Source: a virus
Reading direction: 5' to 3' (one strand)
DNA: 20,243 nucleotides
IMG/VR virus record: IMGVR_UViG_3300006921_000224
Span: 1 to 20,243 of that record
Shown here: positions 1,095 to 17,075 of the stretch, one piece after another
How the letters are laid out: the number at the start of each line of letters is the position of its first letter
How positions within the stretch are numbered: position 1 is the stretch's first letter
The notes under the pieces: model-generated
What the model was told of the DNA's origin: nothing
The model's database searches: none
Seen by the model: only the letters and a program-made list of their open reading frames with translations
Program-made: the position numbers and the translations under genes

Positions 1095-2324
1095 ATGATG
1101 GAACTGGCACTGATCCACACTATGCTGGACAAAGAGTTCTACGATAATCACAAGGGCATACGTTGCCCTGATAAGATATTCAGTAAAGATGCACGTAAGA
1201 TTAAGCACACTCTAGACTACGCTATGACTACCTACGACAAGAGCCTTACGCCTACTGAGTTAGAGGCTTTGTTTGAGGCTAACAACAGGAGTATGACTAC
1301 AGCTAACAAGCAAGTGTACCGTGAGTTGTTTACAAAGATAGCAAGAGAGAAGCCTCTCAGTAATGAGATAGCTACGGATGTACTGTCTAAGTTATTCCAA
1401 CAGGTAGTAGGTGAAGAGATTGCTAACCTTGGTTTTGATTACGTTAATGGAACTCAAGAAAGCTTAGAACCTTTACGTAATCTATTGACTAACTATCAAG
1501 ATGACTTCATGCCTAACCTTAAGGTAGAGTGGGATGACACAAGCATTGATACACTACTCAAAGCTAACGACATACAGTCACAATGGAAGTGGAACATACC
1601 TACTCTTAGACGCAAGACAGAGGGCATCAGCGCAGGACACCTGGTTGTTGTAGGTGCTAGACCTAACACAGGTAAGACAAGCTTTCACGCTAGTGCAATA
1701 GCTGCACCTGATGGGTTTGCATCACAGGGTGCTAAGTGTATGGTGCTGTGTAATGAAGAAAGTTATGAACGTGTAGGTGCAAGATACCTTAGTGCCGCCA
1801 CAAGTATGAGCATGGATGAAGTAAAGACTAACATGGCGGTGGCTGCGTTACGTTACGATCCAGTAGAGAAGAATGTATTCATCAAGGATAGCACAGGTAA
1901 AGACATGGCATGGGTTGAGGCTATCATCAAAGCATACGAGCCTGACATTGTAGTGCTTGATATGGGTGACAAGTTTGCGTCCAAGACAAGTGATAAGTCA
2001 GACATCTATCTTAAGGAAGCAGCGATACATGCACGTAACATAGCCAAGCAACACAACTGTGCAATCATATGGATGTCTCAGTTAAGCGCAGCAGCAGAGG
2101 GTTTGGTACATCCTGATCAGTCAATGCTTGAAGGTAGCAAGACAGGCAAGGCAGCAGAGGCAGACCTAATGATACTCATATCAAAGAACAAGGTAGTTGA
2201 AGGACAGGACGAAGACGAAAGTAGCCAACGACATCTTTGTATAGCTAAGAACAAACTCAAGGGTGGGTGGCATGGAACTGTACACTGTGAGTTAGATGGT
2301 GATAGGAGCCAGTACTTAGCATGA
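1095..2324 (+). CDS. Replicative DNA helicase, DnaB-like
   Basis: A 409-residue hexameric-type helicase of the RecA-fold DnaB/T7 gp4 class, which unwinds DNA ahead of the phage polymerase. The Walker A motif is GARPNTGKT (residues 187 to 195), the Walker B strand is DIVVLD ending at Asp289, and the sensor glutamine is in IIWMSQLS (Gln329). A C-terminal KNKLKGG segment matches the KN(K/R)xG element of DnaB proteins. The N-terminal ~130 residues are helical, like the DnaB N-terminal domain, and there is no primase domain. I chose the ATG at 1095 because GAGAGGAG sits six bases upstream; the frame also allows a TTG at 1077, which lacks such a site. The stop overlaps the polymerase start (ATGA). 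Confidence 0.9.
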   Translation: MMELALIHTMLDKEFYDNHKGIRCPDKIFSKDARKIKHTLDYAMTTYDKSLTPTELEALFEANNRSMTTANKQVYRELFTKIAREKPLSNEIATDVLSKLFQQVVGEEIANLGFDYVNGTQESLEPLRNLLTNYQDDFMPNLKVEWDDTSIDTLLKANDIQSQWKWNIPTLRRKTEGISAGHLVVVGARPNTGKTSFHASAIAAPDGFASQGAKCMVLCNEESYERVGARYLSAATSMSMDEVKTNMAVAALRYDPVEKNVFIKDSTGKDMAWVEAIIKAYEPDIVVLDMGDKFASKTSDKSDIYLKEAAIHARNIAKQHNCAIIWMSQLSAAAEGLVHPDQSMLEGSKTGKAAEADLMILISKNKVVEGQDEDESSQRHLCIAKNKLKGGWHGTVHCELDGDRSQYLA

Positions 2325-4369
2325 GACTTGTACTTGATGTAGAAAACACAATCACTAAACGAGAGAAGAAGAACATCCTTGATCCGTTTGAACCTGGACT
2401 TGAGCTTGTGCAAGTAGGTATGCAGAATGTAGACAACACTGACGAGACATACCTGTTCACTCTTAACCATAAGCAAGATCAAGACGTTGGTGGCTCAAGG
2501 GCTATAAACATTCAGATTATACTGGATAACACAACTCTCTTGATCATGCACAATGCACAGCATGACTTGATGTGGCTATGGGAATCTGGCTTCAAGTATG
2601 ACGGTGACATCTATGACACGATGTTAGCTGAGTACCTGTTACAACGTGGGCAGAAAGCACCTATAAGCTTAGAAGCTTGCGCTGAACGTAGGAATCTAAA
2701 CTATCAGAAGCAAGACACTCTCAAAGAGTATTACAAGAAAGGATACAACACCAATGAGATACCTTTACAAGAGCTTCTTTTTTATCTTAGGAGTGACCTC
2801 GACATTACTCGTGAGTTGTACCTTGCCTTGGAACAAGACTACTCCCAGCCAGAATCAGAGTCCTTACATAAAGTTAGAAAAGTTACCTTCAACACATGCA
2901 AAGCCCTCACCCGAATGTATATGTCAGGAATCTGTGTGGACAGGAATACCCTTCAAGAAGTCCGACTAGAATTTGAACAAGAGAAAGCTGAGATAGAGGA
3001 TAGACTACAACGTAAGACTCGTGATCTTATGGGTGACACACCTATTAATCTCAACAGCCCAGAGCAAGTATCTCAAGTTATATTCAGTAGACGTGTAAAA
3101 AATAAGAAAGAATGGGCTTACTTGCTTGAACACACTAAAACAAAGAGAGGGTTTGAAACAGTAATAGAAGAAAACAGTTCTGTCATTAGAAAGACTAAAG
3201 CATCTACTTGTCCTAAGTGTAATGGACGTGGCTTAGTACATAAGTTGCGTAAGGATGGTACACTTTACAAGCTACCAACTAAATGTAAGCCATGTGACGG
3301 TAGAGGTTATCAGCTAAAAGAAATTAACGTAGCAGCAGGGTTACAATTCAACCCACCAAGCAAGAAGTGGGTAAGTGCAAATGGATTCAGTACTAGTAAG
3401 GGCAACCTTGAAAGTCTTATGGCTACCGCTACAAGTAAGTGCATGGATTCTGCTCTTGCTTTCCTTACTGACCTTAAGCGTCTGTCTGCTATTAGCAGTT
3501 ACCTTAGTAGCTTCGTGGATGGTATCGACATATTCACCAAGCCCAACGGATTCTTACACGTTAACCTTACCCAAAGTGTTACCAGTACAGGTAGATTTTC
3601 TGGACGCAATCCCAACATGCAAAACATGCCAAGAGGAGGTACATTCCCAGTGAAGCGTGTGTTCATATCACGATGGGAAGGTGGACAGATAATGGAATGT
3701 GACTTTGCTCAGTTGGAGTTCAGAGTTGCTGCATTCCTCTCACAGGACAGCACAGCTATGGAGGAGATAGATACAGGGTTTGATGTGCACTCCTACACTG
3801 CAAAGGTTATCAGTGATGCAGGACAGCCTATACAGCGCCAGGCAGCAAAGGAGCATACCTTCGCCCCACTCTTCGGAGCCAGCAGTTATGGTAGACCCAA
3901 GGCTGTAGCCGCATACTACAATCATTTTACGGAGAAGTACCAGGGCATAGCTAAGTGGCACAAGAAGCTAGGCAAGGAAGCAGTAAGACTTTTTAAAATA
4001 ACCAACGTAAGTGGTAGACAGTATGCGTTTCCTGATGTTGAGAAGAGAGCGAATGGTAGTGTGACACACTTCACTATGATTAAGAACTACCCTGTCCAAG
4101 GATTTGCTACAGGTGACATCGTACCTGTCGTACTACTAGAGTTTGAGCGATTGCTTGAGCCTCTACAATCATGCTTAGTCAATACTGTACACGATTCTAT
4201 GGTGATAGATGTACATCCTGACGAAGTAAAAAAAGTCTTAGCTATTGTTGAGACTATTAATGCTAATCTAAACTGTGTTATAAAAGACGCATACGATGTA
4301 GAAATGAATGTGCCTTTATTATTAGAAGCTAAAATAGGAAAGAATTGGCTTGACACAGTTGACGTTTAG
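2321..4369 (+). CDS. polA: DNA polymerase I (family A) with DnaJ-like zinc finger insertion
   Basis: A 682-residue phage replicative polymerase with 3'-5' proofreading. Exonuclease motifs are Asp6/Glu8 (LDVENT), Asp82 in MHNAQHD, and YLRSD (Tyr155, Asp159). Polymerase motif A is DFAQLEFR with Asp461. Motif B is RQAAKEHTFAPLFG, with Arg506, Lys510 and Phe514; Phe514 lines up with E. coli Phe762. Motif C is VHDS (His624, Asp625), with Ser instead of the usual Glu after the aspartate. Between the exonuclease and polymerase domains, residues 297 to 331, lie two CxxCxGxG motifs (Cys297, Cys300, Cys322, Cys325) like the DnaJ zinc finger. That insertion is a known hallmark of HMO-2011-type phages. 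No 5'-3' exonuclease domain is present. The gene ends in TAG. Confidence 0.95.
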   Translation: MRLVLDVENTITKREKKNILDPFEPGLELVQVGMQNVDNTDETYLFTLNHKQDQDVGGSRAINIQIILDNTTLLIMHNAQHDLMWLWESGFKYDGDIYDTMLAEYLLQRGQKAPISLEACAERRNLNYQKQDTLKEYYKKGYNTNEIPLQELLFYLRSDLDITRELYLALEQDYSQPESESLHKVRKVTFNTCKALTRMYMSGICVDRNTLQEVRLEFEQEKAEIEDRLQRKTRDLMGDTPINLNSPEQVSQVIFSRRVKNKKEWAYLLEHTKTKRGFETVIEENSSVIRKTKASTCPKCNGRGLVHKLRKDGTLYKLPTKCKPCDGRGYQLKEINVAAGLQFNPPSKKWVSANGFSTSKGNLESLMATATSKCMDSALAFLTDLKRLSAISSYLSSFVDGIDIFTKPNGFLHVNLTQSVTSTGRFSGRNPNMQNMPRGGTFPVKRVFISRWEGGQIMECDFAQLEFRVAAFLSQDSTAMEEIDTGFDVHSYTAKVISDAGQPIQRQAAKEHTFAPLFGASSYGRPKAVAAYYNHFTEKYQGIAKWHKKLGKEAVRLFKITNVSGRQYAFPDVEKRANGSVTHFTMIKNYPVQGFATGDIVPVVLLEFERLLEPLQSCLVNTVHDSMVIDVHPDEVKKVLAIVETINANLNCVIKDAYDVEMNVPLLLEAKIGKNWLDTVDV

Positions 4370-9804: not shown

Positions 9805-9995
9805 TGTATGTTCTAGTACTCATAATGTCTGTTGCTCCTGGCTATACCCAGGTACAAGCAATTAATCACATCTATCCTACAATGAACCTATGCAAACAAG
9901 GTGCTTCATATATAAGGAGTGAGCTTATGAGTGCTAGACCTACACCTGAGTCTACAGTTTCAGCATACTGTACTGAGATACCAGTAGAAGTTTAA
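9804..9995 (+). CDS. Small protein with hydrophobic N-terminus and two cysteines
   Basis: A 63-residue protein. The N-terminus (MYVLVLIMSVAPGY) forms a short strand or signal-like segment; later come Cys30 in LCKQGASYIR and Cys56 in AYCTEIPVEV. This layout, a hydrophobic start, a Cys-containing helix and a C-terminal YCxEIP, recalls a family of small phage hypothetical proteins from marine viruses, though I recognise it only loosely. No lipobox is evident, so it is not a clear lipoprotein. It overlaps both neighbours by one base. Function unknown. Confidence 0.6.
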   Translation: MYVLVLIMSVAPGYTQVQAINHIYPTMNLCKQGASYIRSELMSARPTPESTVSAYCTEIPVEV

Positions 9996-10399
9996 TGCAG
10001 TTAGACTTATTCAATAAGGATACAGTTAATCTGAAACCTTCTTCTAACAATACTAGAACTTGTAACAAATGCCATGAGACAAAAGACTTACAAGATTTTC
10101 ATGTACCTTATTACAAAAAGAATAATGAAAAAGGAAGAAGCCATACTTGTAAGGCTTGTATTAAAAAGCAGAATAAGGATGTATCTTTATTAAGACTAGA
10201 ACATACCCCACCAGAAGATAGTTGTTGTGAACTTTGTGGTGTATTTAATCAGCATTTACATTTAGATCATGATCATACAAAGCGTTCGTTTAGAGGTTAT
10301 CTTTGTGCTAACTGCAATCAAGGACTAGGTAAGTTTAAAGACAGCATATCTAAATTAAAATTAGCAATAGATTATCTAAATAGAAAGGGCGATCTATGA
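9995..10399 (+). CDS. Endonuclease VII-like HNH nuclease
   Basis: A 134-residue nuclease of the recombination endonuclease VII (T4 gp49) type. The core is HLDHDHTKRSFRGYLCANCN. Asp91, His92 and Asn108 would be the catalytic residues, with Cys78, Cys81, Cys104 and Cys107 holding structural zinc. A second, N-terminal four-cysteine cluster (Cys23, Cys26, Cys52, Cys55) looks like another zinc finger that could bind DNA. T4 endonuclease VII resolves branched DNA; short relatives may instead be nicking or homing-type nucleases. This phage also has a T7-type resolvase, so the two may differ in role. Its start overlaps the previous stop and its stop overlaps the next start. Confidence 0.88.
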   Translation: MQLDLFNKDTVNLKPSSNNTRTCNKCHETKDLQDFHVPYYKKNNEKGRSHTCKACIKKQNKDVSLLRLEHTPPEDSCCELCGVFNQHLHLDHDHTKRSFRGYLCANCNQGLGKFKDSISKLKLAIDYLNRKGDL

Positions 10400-10602: not shown

Positions 10603-10628
10603 GGCCGCTAATGCGGCCCTGTTTGTTA
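10592..10628. terminator. Bidirectional intrinsic terminator between convergent modules
   Basis: A perfect 6-bp GC stem, GGCCGC / GCGGCC (10603-10608 with 10613-10618), has a TAAT loop. Rightward transcripts meet CTGTTTGTT after the stem; leftward transcripts meet TTATTTTTTT, the complement of the A run at 10593 to 10599. The leftward U tract is the stronger. It sits between the stop of the last forward gene (10602) and the stop of the first reverse gene (10626), just where opposing transcripts must end. Confidence 0.85.
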
Positions 10629-12680
10629 TAGCTTGTAGTAATCTTCAATGTAATCGATGTAGTCTGTGAAGAGTTGTAACTCTGGGTATGTCATATCTCT
10701 TACACTACCTTCAAAGTTATATTTATTTTTCATAAACTTCAATGCTTTACTGCGTAACTCTTTGTTACCTGCCTTGGATGCTTTACTCCTTGCCGCACTT
10801 AGCCTTGTCTCCGCTGGTGCTCTATCATTCAAGTACTCTCTTACATCTTTCTTAACTAACCTAAGTGTATTCTTAACTAGCCTACGCCTAGCTTCTAAGT
10901 CACCCTCTAAGAATGCAGGTGTTTTAAGGAGTCTAGCTGTAGCGTTTTCTAACATAGGTGCTACAGTTTGATTGAACACTTTATCATACTCTGCTATCTG
11001 TGATCTTTCGTTGGCTGTCCACGATTGCATGTTTGCCATAGAGTAAACTCTCTCTGTTGCTGTACGTCCAGGCAATACAGTTACACCAAATAGTTTAGCC
11101 ATTGGGTTAGCATCTTGTATCTTACCTTCACGAGTAGCTACAGCTAACTGTTCACCAGTAACACCCTCTACTTCCTCACTGAATATCTCAAATATATTGT
11201 CAAAGTATTTTGTAGCAGACTGTGTTAACAGTTGACCAGATGACTTAGCTTGTCTGACATCTTTAGCTACATCAGTATCCATGATATATCCTGTGAGTTT
11301 ATTTGCTGCATCAAGAGGGCGTGTGAAACCAGCTAAGTAATTACCTGTGGCTCTAGCTAAGAAGTCAAAGCTTGATTTACTTGCTGCTACATCTTGATTT
11401 AACAAAGCACTCATTATCTTTGTAATGTCATTACCAAACTCTATGTCTGATGCAAGCTGTCCTACAGCTAACTGCTCTCCTAATTCTTTAGATAGCTCTG
11501 GTGGTATATCTTCTCCACGTCTCTTCAAGTTACCTATACGTCCAGCTACCAAGAACAATGAGAATGGATAGGTGTTCTTAGCATCTATGATAGTGCCACC
11601 TCCACCCTCTACTTCAAATGTACCTAGACCTTTAGCCCTACGCTCTTCATCGTAGTTGATAGCTAGTCCTATAGTAGTTGCACCAACCAAGCTACGTGCA
11701 GCAGCTTCCACAGTTTCTATATTACGACTCTGTTTGTTGTATATTGCAGACATTACAGGAGCAGCACCACCTATACTCCACTGGTAAGATGTAGCTATGA
11801 CGTTGTTAAAGAATCTACCGAAAGGCAAGATAGTACCAATCAAAGGTATGTTAGATATACTCTCAGTTAGTTTAGCAGCTTGCCTTAGAAGCTGATCATC
11901 TGTTGTGTAGTTCTTTGAGTATACAGATTTAAGAGTTGTGTCTAATGCGCTACCTACTACACTATCATCTAGTAAGTCTAAGTCACCTTGCTCTAGTATC
12001 TCTTTTAGTGTCTTGTCTTTCTTAATCCTAGCGAACTTGTCTAGCTCAGTCATAAACATCTGTGACTTGGTAAACGTATCTTGTATGCGTACACCTGTAA
12101 GTCTACCCATAGCATTAGTCGTACCTTCTATCTGCTTAAACCAAGGAGCATTAGGATCAATGCCGTACTTAACACCTGATCTTTCAACACCACCTGTAAT
12201 ACTTTCAAACAAAACTTTACTGATGTCTTTGTGCTCATCTAAGAATGACATGTAAGCATCATGTGTAGTATATGGGTCCATCAAGTTACGAATCTTTTGT
12301 GCTTGTATATTCTTGTACACACTAGCTATACGTAAAGCTTCACGCCCACGATTAGTTAAGTTACCGCCCAGCGCCAATCCATATGTAAAGGATGCTGTAC
12401 CTGCAAACAGATCAGCCATAGTTTGACCTGCATAGAACTGTCCAAAACCAGCAATGTTAATCGCTGTTGTGGCAGGTGAAGACACTAGCAACCTACGCCA
12501 TACAGACTGTGAGTAAGCACCTAGCTGCATAGGATTCTTACCTATCAACTTTGCTTGCTCTTCTTCTATGGCTTCTTTAGCTTGTGGGTTACGCACCAGG
12601 TTGTCCATAACACGAGTACCATTAGCTAGTCCAGCTTCTATAGTACGTTTAGCTTGAGACATTATACCACCATAAGTCAT
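10626..12680 (-). CDS. Large presumed internal virion protein, C-terminal part after in-frame amber
   Basis: A 684-residue frame from the ATG at 12680. It is mostly helical, with hydrophobic or glycine-rich stretches (for example SPATTAINIAGFGQFYAGQT and IPLIGTILPFGRFFNNVI) and long charged helices. The C-terminal third is basic and helical. This is the look of large internal or ejection proteins of podoviruses, but no enzyme motif is visible and I cannot name the family. The frame continues upstream without a stop through 14 more sense codons to a TAG at 12723-12725, and beyond it is the 482-residue frame in the same phase. The ATG has no well-placed ribosome site (GAAGG lies only one or two bases before it). 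It may therefore be the second half of one ~1180-residue protein. It ends TAA beside the terminator. Confidence 0.75.
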   Translation of the reverse strand: MTYGGIMSQAKRTIEAGLANGTRVMDNLVRNPQAKEAIEEEQAKLIGKNPMQLGAYSQSVWRRLLVSSPATTAINIAGFGQFYAGQTMADLFAGTASFTYGLALGGNLTNRGREALRIASVYKNIQAQKIRNLMDPYTTHDAYMSFLDEHKDISKVLFESITGGVERSGVKYGIDPNAPWFKQIEGTTNAMGRLTGVRIQDTFTKSQMFMTELDKFARIKKDKTLKEILEQGDLDLLDDSVVGSALDTTLKSVYSKNYTTDDQLLRQAAKLTESISNIPLIGTILPFGRFFNNVIATSYQWSIGGAAPVMSAIYNKQSRNIETVEAAARSLVGATTIGLAINYDEERRAKGLGTFEVEGGGGTIIDAKNTYPFSLFLVAGRIGNLKRRGEDIPPELSKELGEQLAVGQLASDIEFGNDITKIMSALLNQDVAASKSSFDFLARATGNYLAGFTRPLDAANKLTGYIMDTDVAKDVRQAKSSGQLLTQSATKYFDNIFEIFSEEVEGVTGEQLAVATREGKIQDANPMAKLFGVTVLPGRTATERVYSMANMQSWTANERSQIAEYDKVFNQTVAPMLENATARLLKTPAFLEGDLEARRRLVKNTLRLVKKDVREYLNDRAPAETRLSAARSKASKAGNKELRSKALKFMKNKYNFEGSVRDMTYPELQLFTDYIDYIEDYYKL

Positions 12681-12722
12681 ACCTTCACTTACGTTAGCAG
12701 CTATAAGATCACCTATGCTTTG

Positions 12723-14171
12723 CTATATAGTAGTCATATCACCTAGTGTATAACCTACCATTGGCTGCATACGTTTTGCTATCTCTTGTAATTGATCTTC
12801 TGGTAGCTGCTTAACTGCGCTTGTCATAACGTCTGTTATCAAAAGCTTATTACTGAGTGGCATACCTTCATCAGCAAATACTTTAGCGATACCACCTTTG
12901 CCATCTGCACCTATCATAATATCTCTTATTAGTTCAGACGGTAGCATAGATGTCTGGTTTAAATCTTTACCACGTTTTACTTTAGCATCCCAGTTATCTA
13001 AAGTCTTATTCATTTGTTTAGCCATCTTCTTTACAGCAGAATCAGGTATAGCAAGTAGTAACTCTTTTTGTAATTCTTGTTCTGTCTTAGCTGATCTTCG
13101 TGATGCTTTTAACTGCTCAGATATATTGCTTAAACCACTTGAACCTTTAGCCCTACCACCTAGAAGTTGACCACCAGCGCCTACTGCACCTAACAAAGAA
13201 CTAAACCCTGTCTGTAATGCACTGTACTCTTCTTGTGCACCTACATCTATCATAACATTTTGTATCTGGTAATCATTAAGCATAGCTAAAGTACCGTCAA
13301 TACCAGCAGTACCCATCAAAGCTTTTCTACTAGCAGCTTTCTCACGGCCTACTATAAACTGTCTTTGGGCTTTTTTCTTTTCGTTAATCAAAAAGTCATC
13401 TCTAGCTTGTTTAGCTATACGATTCCTAAACTCTTTAGAAGCAGGTGTCCGTACACCACGAGCAGCTAGGCGTTGGGCCGCACTCTCTGCAGCTTCATTA
13501 CCTATACGAATTGCAGCTCGCCCTGTAACCCCATCTTTAACTGCTTTCTTACCAGCTTCAACAGCAGCACGTTTAACTAGGGCTTTACCACTTGCGGATA
13601 TACCCATAGCACCAGCTTTACTCAAGCCACCTGTAAGTATACCTATGTAGTTTGAAGGATCACTGGCTGCAGCTTTGATGTAATCAAACACACCATCTAC
13701 TGCACCAAAGAATCCATCGTTAACAAATACATTACCTAGTTGATCATATAATTGATAAGCTTCTTTAGCGGCAACTTTATCACCCTCACTGGCATTAGAT
13801 ACAAAGCGTACCTCACCTCCTGTAGATATTAAGTTGGTGTTAAAACTACGCATATGATCTACAAACTTTTCAACAAGCTCATCATCATCTATCCTACCAG
13901 CATCCACACCTTTACGTGCTATCATGTAGCTACGTATCTTTTCTATGTTGCCAGCCTTAAGTAAGTCTTTCTTCTTAAGCTTCTTACCCATGTCAACAAC
14001 AGTGTCTTCCTGTTCCTGTCGTTTGCTAACAGAGTATTTACTTCTAAAAGAAGCTAGGCTTTTAGGTTCATTATCATCATCTTTTATATCTAACAAGTTA
14101 TCAGTTTGCAGATCAGTCTGTGACTTACCAACGCCATACTTACTACGCAAGTCCTGTAAAGTACTACTCAT
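12723..14171 (-). CDS. Large presumed internal virion protein, N-terminal part ending in amber
   Basis: A 482-residue frame that begins MSSTLQDLRSKYGVGKSQ and ends in TAG. The N-terminus carries two copies of an RSKYxVxKxQ element (residues 9 to 18 and 43 to 52) separated by an acidic linker. The middle is helical, alanine- and glycine-rich (about residues 150 to 230 and 330 to 350), then charged helices follow. No catalytic motif is visible. It is in the same frame as the 684-residue gene downstream, with only the TAG between them. AGAAAG lies eight bases before the ATG. Position in the late module and composition suggest an internal or ejection protein. Whether the two halves are one protein is unresolved. 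Confidence 0.75.
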   Translation of the reverse strand: MSSTLQDLRSKYGVGKSQTDLQTDNLLDIKDDDNEPKSLASFRSKYSVSKRQEQEDTVVDMGKKLKKKDLLKAGNIEKIRSYMIARKGVDAGRIDDDELVEKFVDHMRSFNTNLISTGGEVRFVSNASEGDKVAAKEAYQLYDQLGNVFVNDGFFGAVDGVFDYIKAAASDPSNYIGILTGGLSKAGAMGISASGKALVKRAAVEAGKKAVKDGVTGRAAIRIGNEAAESAAQRLAARGVRTPASKEFRNRIAKQARDDFLINEKKKAQRQFIVGREKAASRKALMGTAGIDGTLAMLNDYQIQNVMIDVGAQEEYSALQTGFSSLLGAVGAGGQLLGGRAKGSSGLSNISEQLKASRRSAKTEQELQKELLLAIPDSAVKKMAKQMNKTLDNWDAKVKRGKDLNQTSMLPSELIRDIMIGADGKGGIAKVFADEGMPLSNKLLITDVMTSAVKQLPEDQLQEIAKRMQPMVGYTLGDMTTI

Positions 14172-14190: not shown

Positions 14191-16059
14191 TTATGAACTT
14201 ATCTTACTTTGTATTTTTGTTATTAGTTGTTCATTTATAGGTACATCATTCTGCATAAACCAATCTCGTATTATCTCTTTACCGTCTTCGCCTTTAAGTA
14301 GTTCCATCTCAGGAAACTCATCGACTAGTTCGTTATATATATCTGTAGCCATGTCTTGTCCATCTACTTCTGGTCTTGGCTTTGGTCTAGGTGAGGACAT
14401 TAAACCTTCAGGCTTACCGCCTGTTTCTACAGTGACAGCTTCTTTAGGCTCTTTACCGTACAGTTTCTTTAATCTACTAGCACTCATAGTTCTACGAGGT
14501 ATCTTTTCATCTACATCAAATTCATATACCTCTACACCACCTTGTTCAGCAGATAGGTTTTGGTCAGGTACATACTTAAGGTTCTCACCTTTTATTTTAA
14601 AGTTACCTAAAGGTGCTATGTTTATTTTGTAGAACGCATCAGGGTCTGCATTCCGTTTTAAATCTACCATATTCATACCTTCTTCAGTGCCAAACTTCAT
14701 AAAGCCACCACCAAAGTTACGTTCAGGTAAACCTAAGTTTTTTCTTTCCTGTCTACTTAACTCTTCAAACTGCTCTCTTGTGATAGATAAAGGATCAAAG
14801 TCTAAGTTTTTCTCTTGAGCAGTAACCTCTAGATCCTCTGGTCTTTTTATTACACCTGGTGCTACAAAGCTTGTCATATCACTGTATAATTCCATAACAT
14901 CGTTACTAGCTACCTCTTCACCAGTTGATGCAGTTGCAGACACAGGCAATCCATCTACGTCCATCTGAAAAGTAAACGCAATAGCATCACCTTTATCGTC
15001 TTTCATAAAATTAGGGTGAGATAGTTTAACTTCATTATCTGACAAAGCTTCAACCTTACCTTCATTATCTCCTGCTTTTGGAGTATTGTTACCTCCTCCA
15101 GTTATTTCAGATACAGCAGGTCCATACACAGACTTCAGACTGTCTAGGTACTCTGTACCCATATGCATTTGCATCAAATCTTTTAGCCCAGTGTAAGCTT
15201 GTGTTCCATACAAAGCCAATGTCTCATCAAACAGAGGTCTTAAAGCTCTCTCGTTCTGATCTTTTACGTAGGTTTGTGCAGCAAGCAGAGACTCTTCTTC
15301 TTCAGGTTGCAGTACACCACTAGACCTACCTGAAAACTTTTCAATAATTGCAATAGAAGAATTATATCTAGAGCCTGGAGTGTTTAAGGTATTTATAGCG
15401 TCCTCTATAGTAGATCTTATACCTAAACTTTCAGCAGCACCAAATCTTCTTATGTCTGTTATAGCCGCAAAGGTAGATGGTATAAGTGTTTTATAATCCG
15501 CTTGTCTAGCTAACTCATTTATATCTGCTGCAGTCATACCCTCGTAAATAACATCACGATCTAACTTAGCACGAGAGCGATCCATAGCATTGCTACCTAG
15601 TGCTGTTTCCCACCAGTTATACTTTGTTTCATCTTCAGACGGTCCTATAGTAGGAGAGTACGTACCAAATGTAGACTCTATGTATTTATCTATAGGCATG
15701 TCTAGTGCTTGGAAGTTTTCTGGTAATGCTATGATAGTGTCAAAGTCTGCTGCACTTAGTGTATCACCGTATACCTCTTTAGCTTTAACTACTGAGTTAG
15801 CAAATCTAGTTAACCCATCAGGGCCACTAGCTATAGCAGCTTGTATTTGATCTTTAGAAGCACCAGCATCGCTCAACATTTTTGACAAACCTTTAGCTTG
15901 ACTGACTACAGCGTTACGCTTAGATAGCGTTAGCATATTGTCTCTAGCTAAATCTTTTTGCTCTTCAAAGTACTCTTTAGCTTCGGCTTTGTTTTCTCTA
16001 ATGTCTTTAGCTTCTTCTTCTAAAAAGCTAGTGGCAAATGCCATCCAATCAAAACCCAT
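14191..16059 (-). CDS. Presumed virion protein, 622 residues
   Basis: A large acidic protein with no family I can name. The N-terminal ~60 residues are strongly helical and charged (EEEAKDIRENKAEAKEYFEE), suggesting a coiled coil. The middle is mixed helix. From about residue 330 a beta-rich stretch begins with a GGGNNTPKAGDNEG linker. Near residues 551 to 563 is GLM followed by a Pro/Arg/Lys-rich run (SSPRPKPRPE), a likely flexible linker before the C-terminal helices. The GLM element recurs in two neighbouring proteins. AGAGGTG precedes the ATG by five bases. Its place between the 185-residue protein and the large internal protein suggests a core or ejection role, by analogy with podoviruses; this is inference. 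Confidence 0.72.
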   Translation of the reverse strand: MGFDWMAFATSFLEEEAKDIRENKAEAKEYFEEQKDLARDNMLTLSKRNAVVSQAKGLSKMLSDAGASKDQIQAAIASGPDGLTRFANSVVKAKEVYGDTLSAADFDTIIALPENFQALDMPIDKYIESTFGTYSPTIGPSEDETKYNWWETALGSNAMDRSRAKLDRDVIYEGMTAADINELARQADYKTLIPSTFAAITDIRRFGAAESLGIRSTIEDAINTLNTPGSRYNSSIAIIEKFSGRSSGVLQPEEEESLLAAQTYVKDQNERALRPLFDETLALYGTQAYTGLKDLMQMHMGTEYLDSLKSVYGPAVSEITGGGNNTPKAGDNEGKVEALSDNEVKLSHPNFMKDDKGDAIAFTFQMDVDGLPVSATASTGEEVASNDVMELYSDMTSFVAPGVIKRPEDLEVTAQEKNLDFDPLSITREQFEELSRQERKNLGLPERNFGGGFMKFGTEEGMNMVDLKRNADPDAFYKINIAPLGNFKIKGENLKYVPDQNLSAEQGGVEVYEFDVDEKIPRRTMSASRLKKLYGKEPKEAVTVETGGKPEGLMSSPRPKPRPEVDGQDMATDIYNELVDEFPEMELLKGEDGKEIIRDWFMQNDVPINEQLITKIQSKISS

Positions 16060-16061
16060 AG

Positions 16062-16619
16062 TTACACCTCTTTAGCCATAAGACCCTTACTGCTTTCAGC
16101 AGGTGTAGTCTCTATTGTTTCTTTTTCTTGTACTGTAGCTTCATCATCTGCAGCTTGTTGCATCTCCTCTAGTAGAGTTGCACCTGCATCATCTGCATCA
16201 TCAGCTTCTATAAGAGCCAACTCTAATGCCTTAAGTGTTCGTGCCTTTTCACGCTTGTCCATCTCTTCCTTTGGATCAAATGGCTCATCTTTAGCTTCGA
16301 TACCGTAGGTAGACATTGCCGCTTTTACGTAAGCGTGTACGACAGGTGCAGCCAACATACCAGCTTGTACGGTATGCTTGCCAAACATAAAGCCACTACT
16401 CATAAGTGTCTTAACAAAAGAGGATACAGACATACCTGCATTAAACACTACAGATAAATCATCCATAACTTCTTGATCAGACAGTTTATCAATGTAGTAC
16501 TTAGCTACCTCTTCTTTAGTCACCATCTCAGGTGGCTTCTCAAAAGGATAGTTTCCTGGTGTGTTTGTAAGAGACTGCCCTGGTATAGGTGCAGATAGAA
16601 AAGCTACAGGTGTTACCAT
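16062..16619 (-). CDS. Conserved virion-associated protein, 185 residues
   Basis: The N-terminus, APIPGQSLTNTPGNYPFEKP and then PEMVTKEE, recalls a protein found in several marine phages whose start reads IPGQSLT with a following TPGNYP(W/F)E element. The centre is hydrophobic and helical (SSFVKTLMSSGFMFGKHTVQ, then AGMLAAPVVHAYV), perhaps membrane-interacting. The C-terminal 60 residues are very acidic (DADDAG, EEMQQAADDE) and end in SSKGLMAKEV, carrying the GLM element shared with neighbours. AAGGT sits nine bases before the ATG. It lies between the membrane protein and the 622-residue protein with two-base and twelve-base gaps. Exact function unknown. Confidence 0.72.
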   Translation of the reverse strand: MVTPVAFLSAPIPGQSLTNTPGNYPFEKPPEMVTKEEVAKYYIDKLSDQEVMDDLSVVFNAGMSVSSFVKTLMSSGFMFGKHTVQAGMLAAPVVHAYVKAAMSTYGIEAKDEPFDPKEEMDKREKARTLKALELALIEADDADDAGATLLEEMQQAADDEATVQEKETIETTPAESSKGLMAKEV

Positions 16620-16631
16620 TTTATTTATACC

Positions 16632-17075
16632 TTATTTAGTAAATCCAGCGCCAAAGTATAGTCCTACTATGGCTGATACAATGTGTGTGTCTAGTGGTGT
16701 GATTACAAAGCCTTGTGCCATCTTCCACTGTATAGCTTCGTCTGGTCCAAACAACCAGTTCATAAAACCACCAGTTGCTTCAGTATATCCTACGTACACA
16801 CTTACTTCAGGATACCATACTGCGACTAGCTTTGGCAATACAATAATAGAGAACACAGCAGATAAAGCTATAAGCCTACGTGTCCACGCAAAGTGTGAAT
16901 CATTCTTACCTGCGTCACGAGCATCCTTAACTGCAGACTTCCTAAAGTTAGCACGTTCCATGAGCATGTCATTCTGTGCTTGCTTAGACTTTATTGATTG
17001 ACCCCATATAGACATTACTCCACCTAGTACAGTGGAGAAAAGCATGGTGATTAGTTCTAGTGGTAATCCAAACAT
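16632..17075 (-). CDS. Three-helix membrane protein, putative holin
   Basis: A 147-residue protein with three hydrophobic segments, at about residues 3 to 23, 66 to 87 and 126 to 145. Between the first two is a charged amphipathic helix (KSKQAQNDMLMERANFRKSA). This layout fits three-segment phage holins, which open the inner membrane so lysozyme can reach the wall, and the gene next to it encodes a GH19 lysozyme. The segment RRLIALSAVFSIIVLPKLVA resembles the second segment of such proteins. AGGA lies seven bases before the ATG, which overlaps the lysozyme stop (TAATG). It could instead be a virion membrane protein that works with the ejection proteins. Confidence 0.72.
   Translation of the reverse strand: MFGLPLELITMLFSTVLGGVMSIWGQSIKSKQAQNDMLMERANFRKSAVKDARDAGKNDSHFAWTRRLIALSAVFSIIVLPKLVAVWYPEVSVYVGYTEATGGFMNWLFGPDEAIQWKMAQGFVITPLDTHIVSAIVGLYFGAGFTK

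Follow-up and report, generated by a model that had tools for sequence, protein, structure and literature searches.

In HMO-2011-type phages the DNA polymerase characteristically carries a partial DnaJ-like insert containing two CXXCXGXG motifs (PMC9038755). The window analysed here, a viral record of 20,243 bases, is a 20-kb fragment of an uncultivated marine phage of this type, whose kinship to CRP-603 makes a bacterium of the Roseobacter group its probable host. The DNA polymerase gene of the window (2321-4369) encodes both motifs of the DnaJ-like insert (CPKCNGRG and CKPCDGRG), and its product is 70% identical to the polymerase of Roseobacter phage CRP-603 and 67% identical to that of CRP-207. 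Most of the window genes have CRP-603 homologues in the same order, both in the replication and in the structural module. The polymerase motifs and the gene order, compared at the sequence level, both place the window among the HMO-2011-type phages.

Three isolates of Roseobacter phages carry one uninterrupted large late gene, CRP-603 gp44 (UAW59211.1, 1,152 aa), CRP-207 gp39 (UAW58929.1, 1,148 aa) and CRP-9 gp36 (QSL99451.1, 1,141 aa), which is homologous to the window gene along most of its length and is found at the same place, converging with the metabolism module. The products of 1,141-1,152 aa compare with 1,181 codons in the window, where the gene copy is interrupted by TAG at codon 483 and where both halves match the single gene of the isolates.

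The site was read directly on the minus strand as ...ACT ATA TAG CAA AGC ATA GGT..., with the TAG at 12725-12723. Apart from this codon there is one open frame of 1,181 codons (482 + TAG + 698), which stays open for 698 codons beyond the TAG, confirming the amber codon in a frame of about 1180 codons that had been noticed from the letters alone. The program-made list gives two ORFs, of 482 and 684 aa. The upstream one starts with the ATG at 14171, and this 5' part (12723..14171, minus strand, 482 codons and the TAG) is homologous to the N-terminal part of CRP-603 gp44 and CRP-207 gp39. The 3' part (10626..12680, minus strand, 684 codons from an internal ATG) is in the same phase and is homologous to the C-terminal part of the same two proteins. 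Between the two ORFs are the TAG and 14 sense codons (12681..12722, minus strand, QSIGDLIAANVSEG), which align without gaps to most relatives; the sequence-only reading described them accurately. It was also right about the downstream start: no Shine-Dalgarno-like sequence stands at a usable distance from the ATG at 12680, where a GAAGG ends 1 nt upstream, and most other window genes have Shine-Dalgarno-like matches of 4-6 bases. In the relatives one continuous frame matches both halves, which by homology shows them to be parts of the same gene.

No other window gene is open as far past its own stop, the runner-up being the gene at 16632-17075 (189 codons). A second pair of same-frame neighbours, with TAA between them, was detected at 16062-17075. 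CRP-603 has the identical boundary (gp47/gp46), so this pair represents a true gene boundary.

The gene had been described as a virion gene, with an ejection-type protein as its product. Its place in the late, structural module stands; no family model matches the protein, and a virion or DNA-ejection role is suggested by position in the late module. The intact protein of the sister contig L005 gave no significant family in Pfam or PHROGs scans, the profile search of solved structures returned a chance-level match (E 0.71), and no relative of the protein was detected when contigs of bacterial and archaeal genomes were scanned. The AlphaFold2 model of this intact protein is nearly all helical and of low confidence (mean pLDDT 53), and the stop site falls between short helices, in residues 481-547, which are modelled with low confidence.

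The homologue set comprised 87 contigs or genomes, 84 of them spanning the site. A comparison of close relatives had been proposed, in order to see whether the protein is uninterrupted and which residue replaces the TAG. The spanning relatives were directly seen to be intact: none of the 84 has a stop there, and L005 has CAG. The codon in the aligned column varies (GCA, CGT, AAG, GCT, GGT, CAG and others), no relative is split into two genes at the site, and the 95,321 aligned codons of the 87 homologous contigs or genomes contain no internal stop. Frameshifts were detected elsewhere in the large late gene of two contigs, L043 (2679-6040) and L047 (2623-6028), a rate of about 2/87, and these are probably assembly errors or private mutations. 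They show that assembled contigs of this kind can have private breaks in the large late gene.

The closest relative, L005, is 97.7% identical to the window in DNA over 4.8 kb. Its protein is uninterrupted for 1,181 codons and is 99.2% identical in amino acids (residues 1-1180). The L005 codon at the site is CAG (Gln), a directly observed difference of one base, being one transition from TAG. When viral contigs were scanned for identical flanks, whatever the codon between them, the L005 contig alone was returned, and with this single closely related contig for comparison the TAG may be common to a small cluster of strains. Window and L005 differ by 13 synonymous and 3 nonsynonymous changes before the stop, and by 32 synonymous and 7 nonsynonymous changes from the stop on (the stop and the last codon counted in). 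Synonymous changes predominate before as well as after the stop, so there is no sign of decay in the 3' part, in keeping with an error or with a change that happened very recently. Polarisation with outgroups assigned six changes to the window branch, all six synonymous; the outgroups have GCA at the position of the stop codon, so that the stop itself is not assignable to a branch.

Two other regions of the window differ from L005. The endonuclease VII-like (HNH) gene at 9995-10399 has a divergent gene of similar type at L005 4792-5232, with flanks about 97% identical, and this region represents a local gene swap between the two close relatives. At 14780-15070 of the window, differences from L005 cluster in the middle of a 622-aa gene, for which homology to CRP-603 and CRP-207 is confined to the first third to half. 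The clustered differences and the partial homology indicate that the 622-aa protein has a fast-changing part.

We consider it very probable that the in-frame TAG is a private single-base change or a sequence error, that is, a nonsense allele or a consensus error, and not a recoding signal. The event would be a C to T change on the coding strand that turned CAG into TAG in the large late gene of this HMO-2011-type phage, and it could have arisen as a recent nonsense allele or as a consensus or sequencing error in the metagenomic contig. Because every relative has a sense codon there, we infer that CAG was the ancestral codon. If the change is real, the protein of about 1,181 residues would be truncated at residue 482 and the genome copy would probably be defective. 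A recent nonsense mutation and an assembly error were both among the explanations offered by the sequence-only reading, and as a pair they are supported by a stop unique to the window and by L005 being one base off.

Programmed amber readthrough had also been put forward, by which a virion protein would be made in a short form of 482 residues and a long form of 1,181 residues. Before and after the TAG the frame is open and looks like protein, the undamaged 3' part would also fit readthrough, and UAG followed by C is a potentially leaky stop context, which is weak evidence on its own. However, the stop is missing from every other contig or genome spanning the site, including the one with near-identical protein, which refutes readthrough as a trait conserved across the family; the residue at the aligned column is variable, and neither around nor downstream of the stop is the RNA more stably folded than shuffled sequence (z -0.22 and -0.54). 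Together with the ordinary use of TAG to terminate genes in this phage group, these results leave programmed readthrough without support and make it very improbable. An amber allele at the level of the strain, kept by a host suppressor or by leaky reading of UAG C in the host, would let one lineage make both the short and the full-length form, and we regard this too as highly unlikely.

Decoding of the codon, for example as Gln, by an amber suppressor tRNA of the phage or its host or by a recoded TAG would be neutral with respect to the CAG of L005, and TAG-to-Gln recoding is known in crAss-like phages (PMC9523058). In this phage group, however, TAG is a normal terminator. The window DNA polymerase gene ends with it, at the position where the homologues end, and so does the CRP-603 polymerase gene, at the matching protein end; it terminates 9 of the 77 CRP-603 genes, and it is also the stop of the large late gene itself in 11 of the 92 homologous loci that are full-length, a set that includes overlapping stretches of one contig. 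The TAG at codon 483 is the only in-frame TAG inside any window gene, against 268 Gln codons, which does not indicate TAG recoding, and recoding of the whole genome was rejected on this count and on the terminator usage. No tRNA genes were detected in the window fragment, in complete CRP-603 or in complete CRP-207, and hence no suppressor with the CUA anticodon in these three. A host or phage suppressor, which had been suggested earlier, is thus not supported, and there is little chance that it or a recoded TAG accounts for the site. Gene fission, with two functional genes in this lineage and a restart downstream of the stop, would agree with both halves being intact and with an ATG 14 codons past the stop. 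The candidate starts just downstream are without a good ribosome site, though, no terminator- or promoter-like site was found close to the stop (promoter-like sites being searched within 12500-12900), and the relatives keep the gene whole here, making fission exceedingly improbable.

With a private change or sequence error as the preferred explanation, the ORFs of 482 and 684 codons are best annotated together, as a single gene with an interruption. For metagenomic phage contigs in general, recoding should be proposed for a lone in-frame stop only after comparison with a sister contig that is nearly identical, a comparison that resolves the case here. The finding is an ordinary one, of little importance beyond annotation. 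If readthrough were real, a marine phage would be making a large late protein in two lengths, short and long, but the comparison argues against it.

The phages with TAG recoded to Gln (genetic code 15, PMC9523058) resemble the window in having TAG in place of a Gln codon. Many in-frame TAGs are expected in such phages, in contrast to the single one in the window, where TAG terminates elsewhere and no suppressor tRNA was found. A study of stops common to orthologues of at least two species provides the other comparison: the window stop is present in a single sequence only, and the likeness to that study is that a relative has CAG opposite the TAG and that purifying selection apparently acts on the part downstream.
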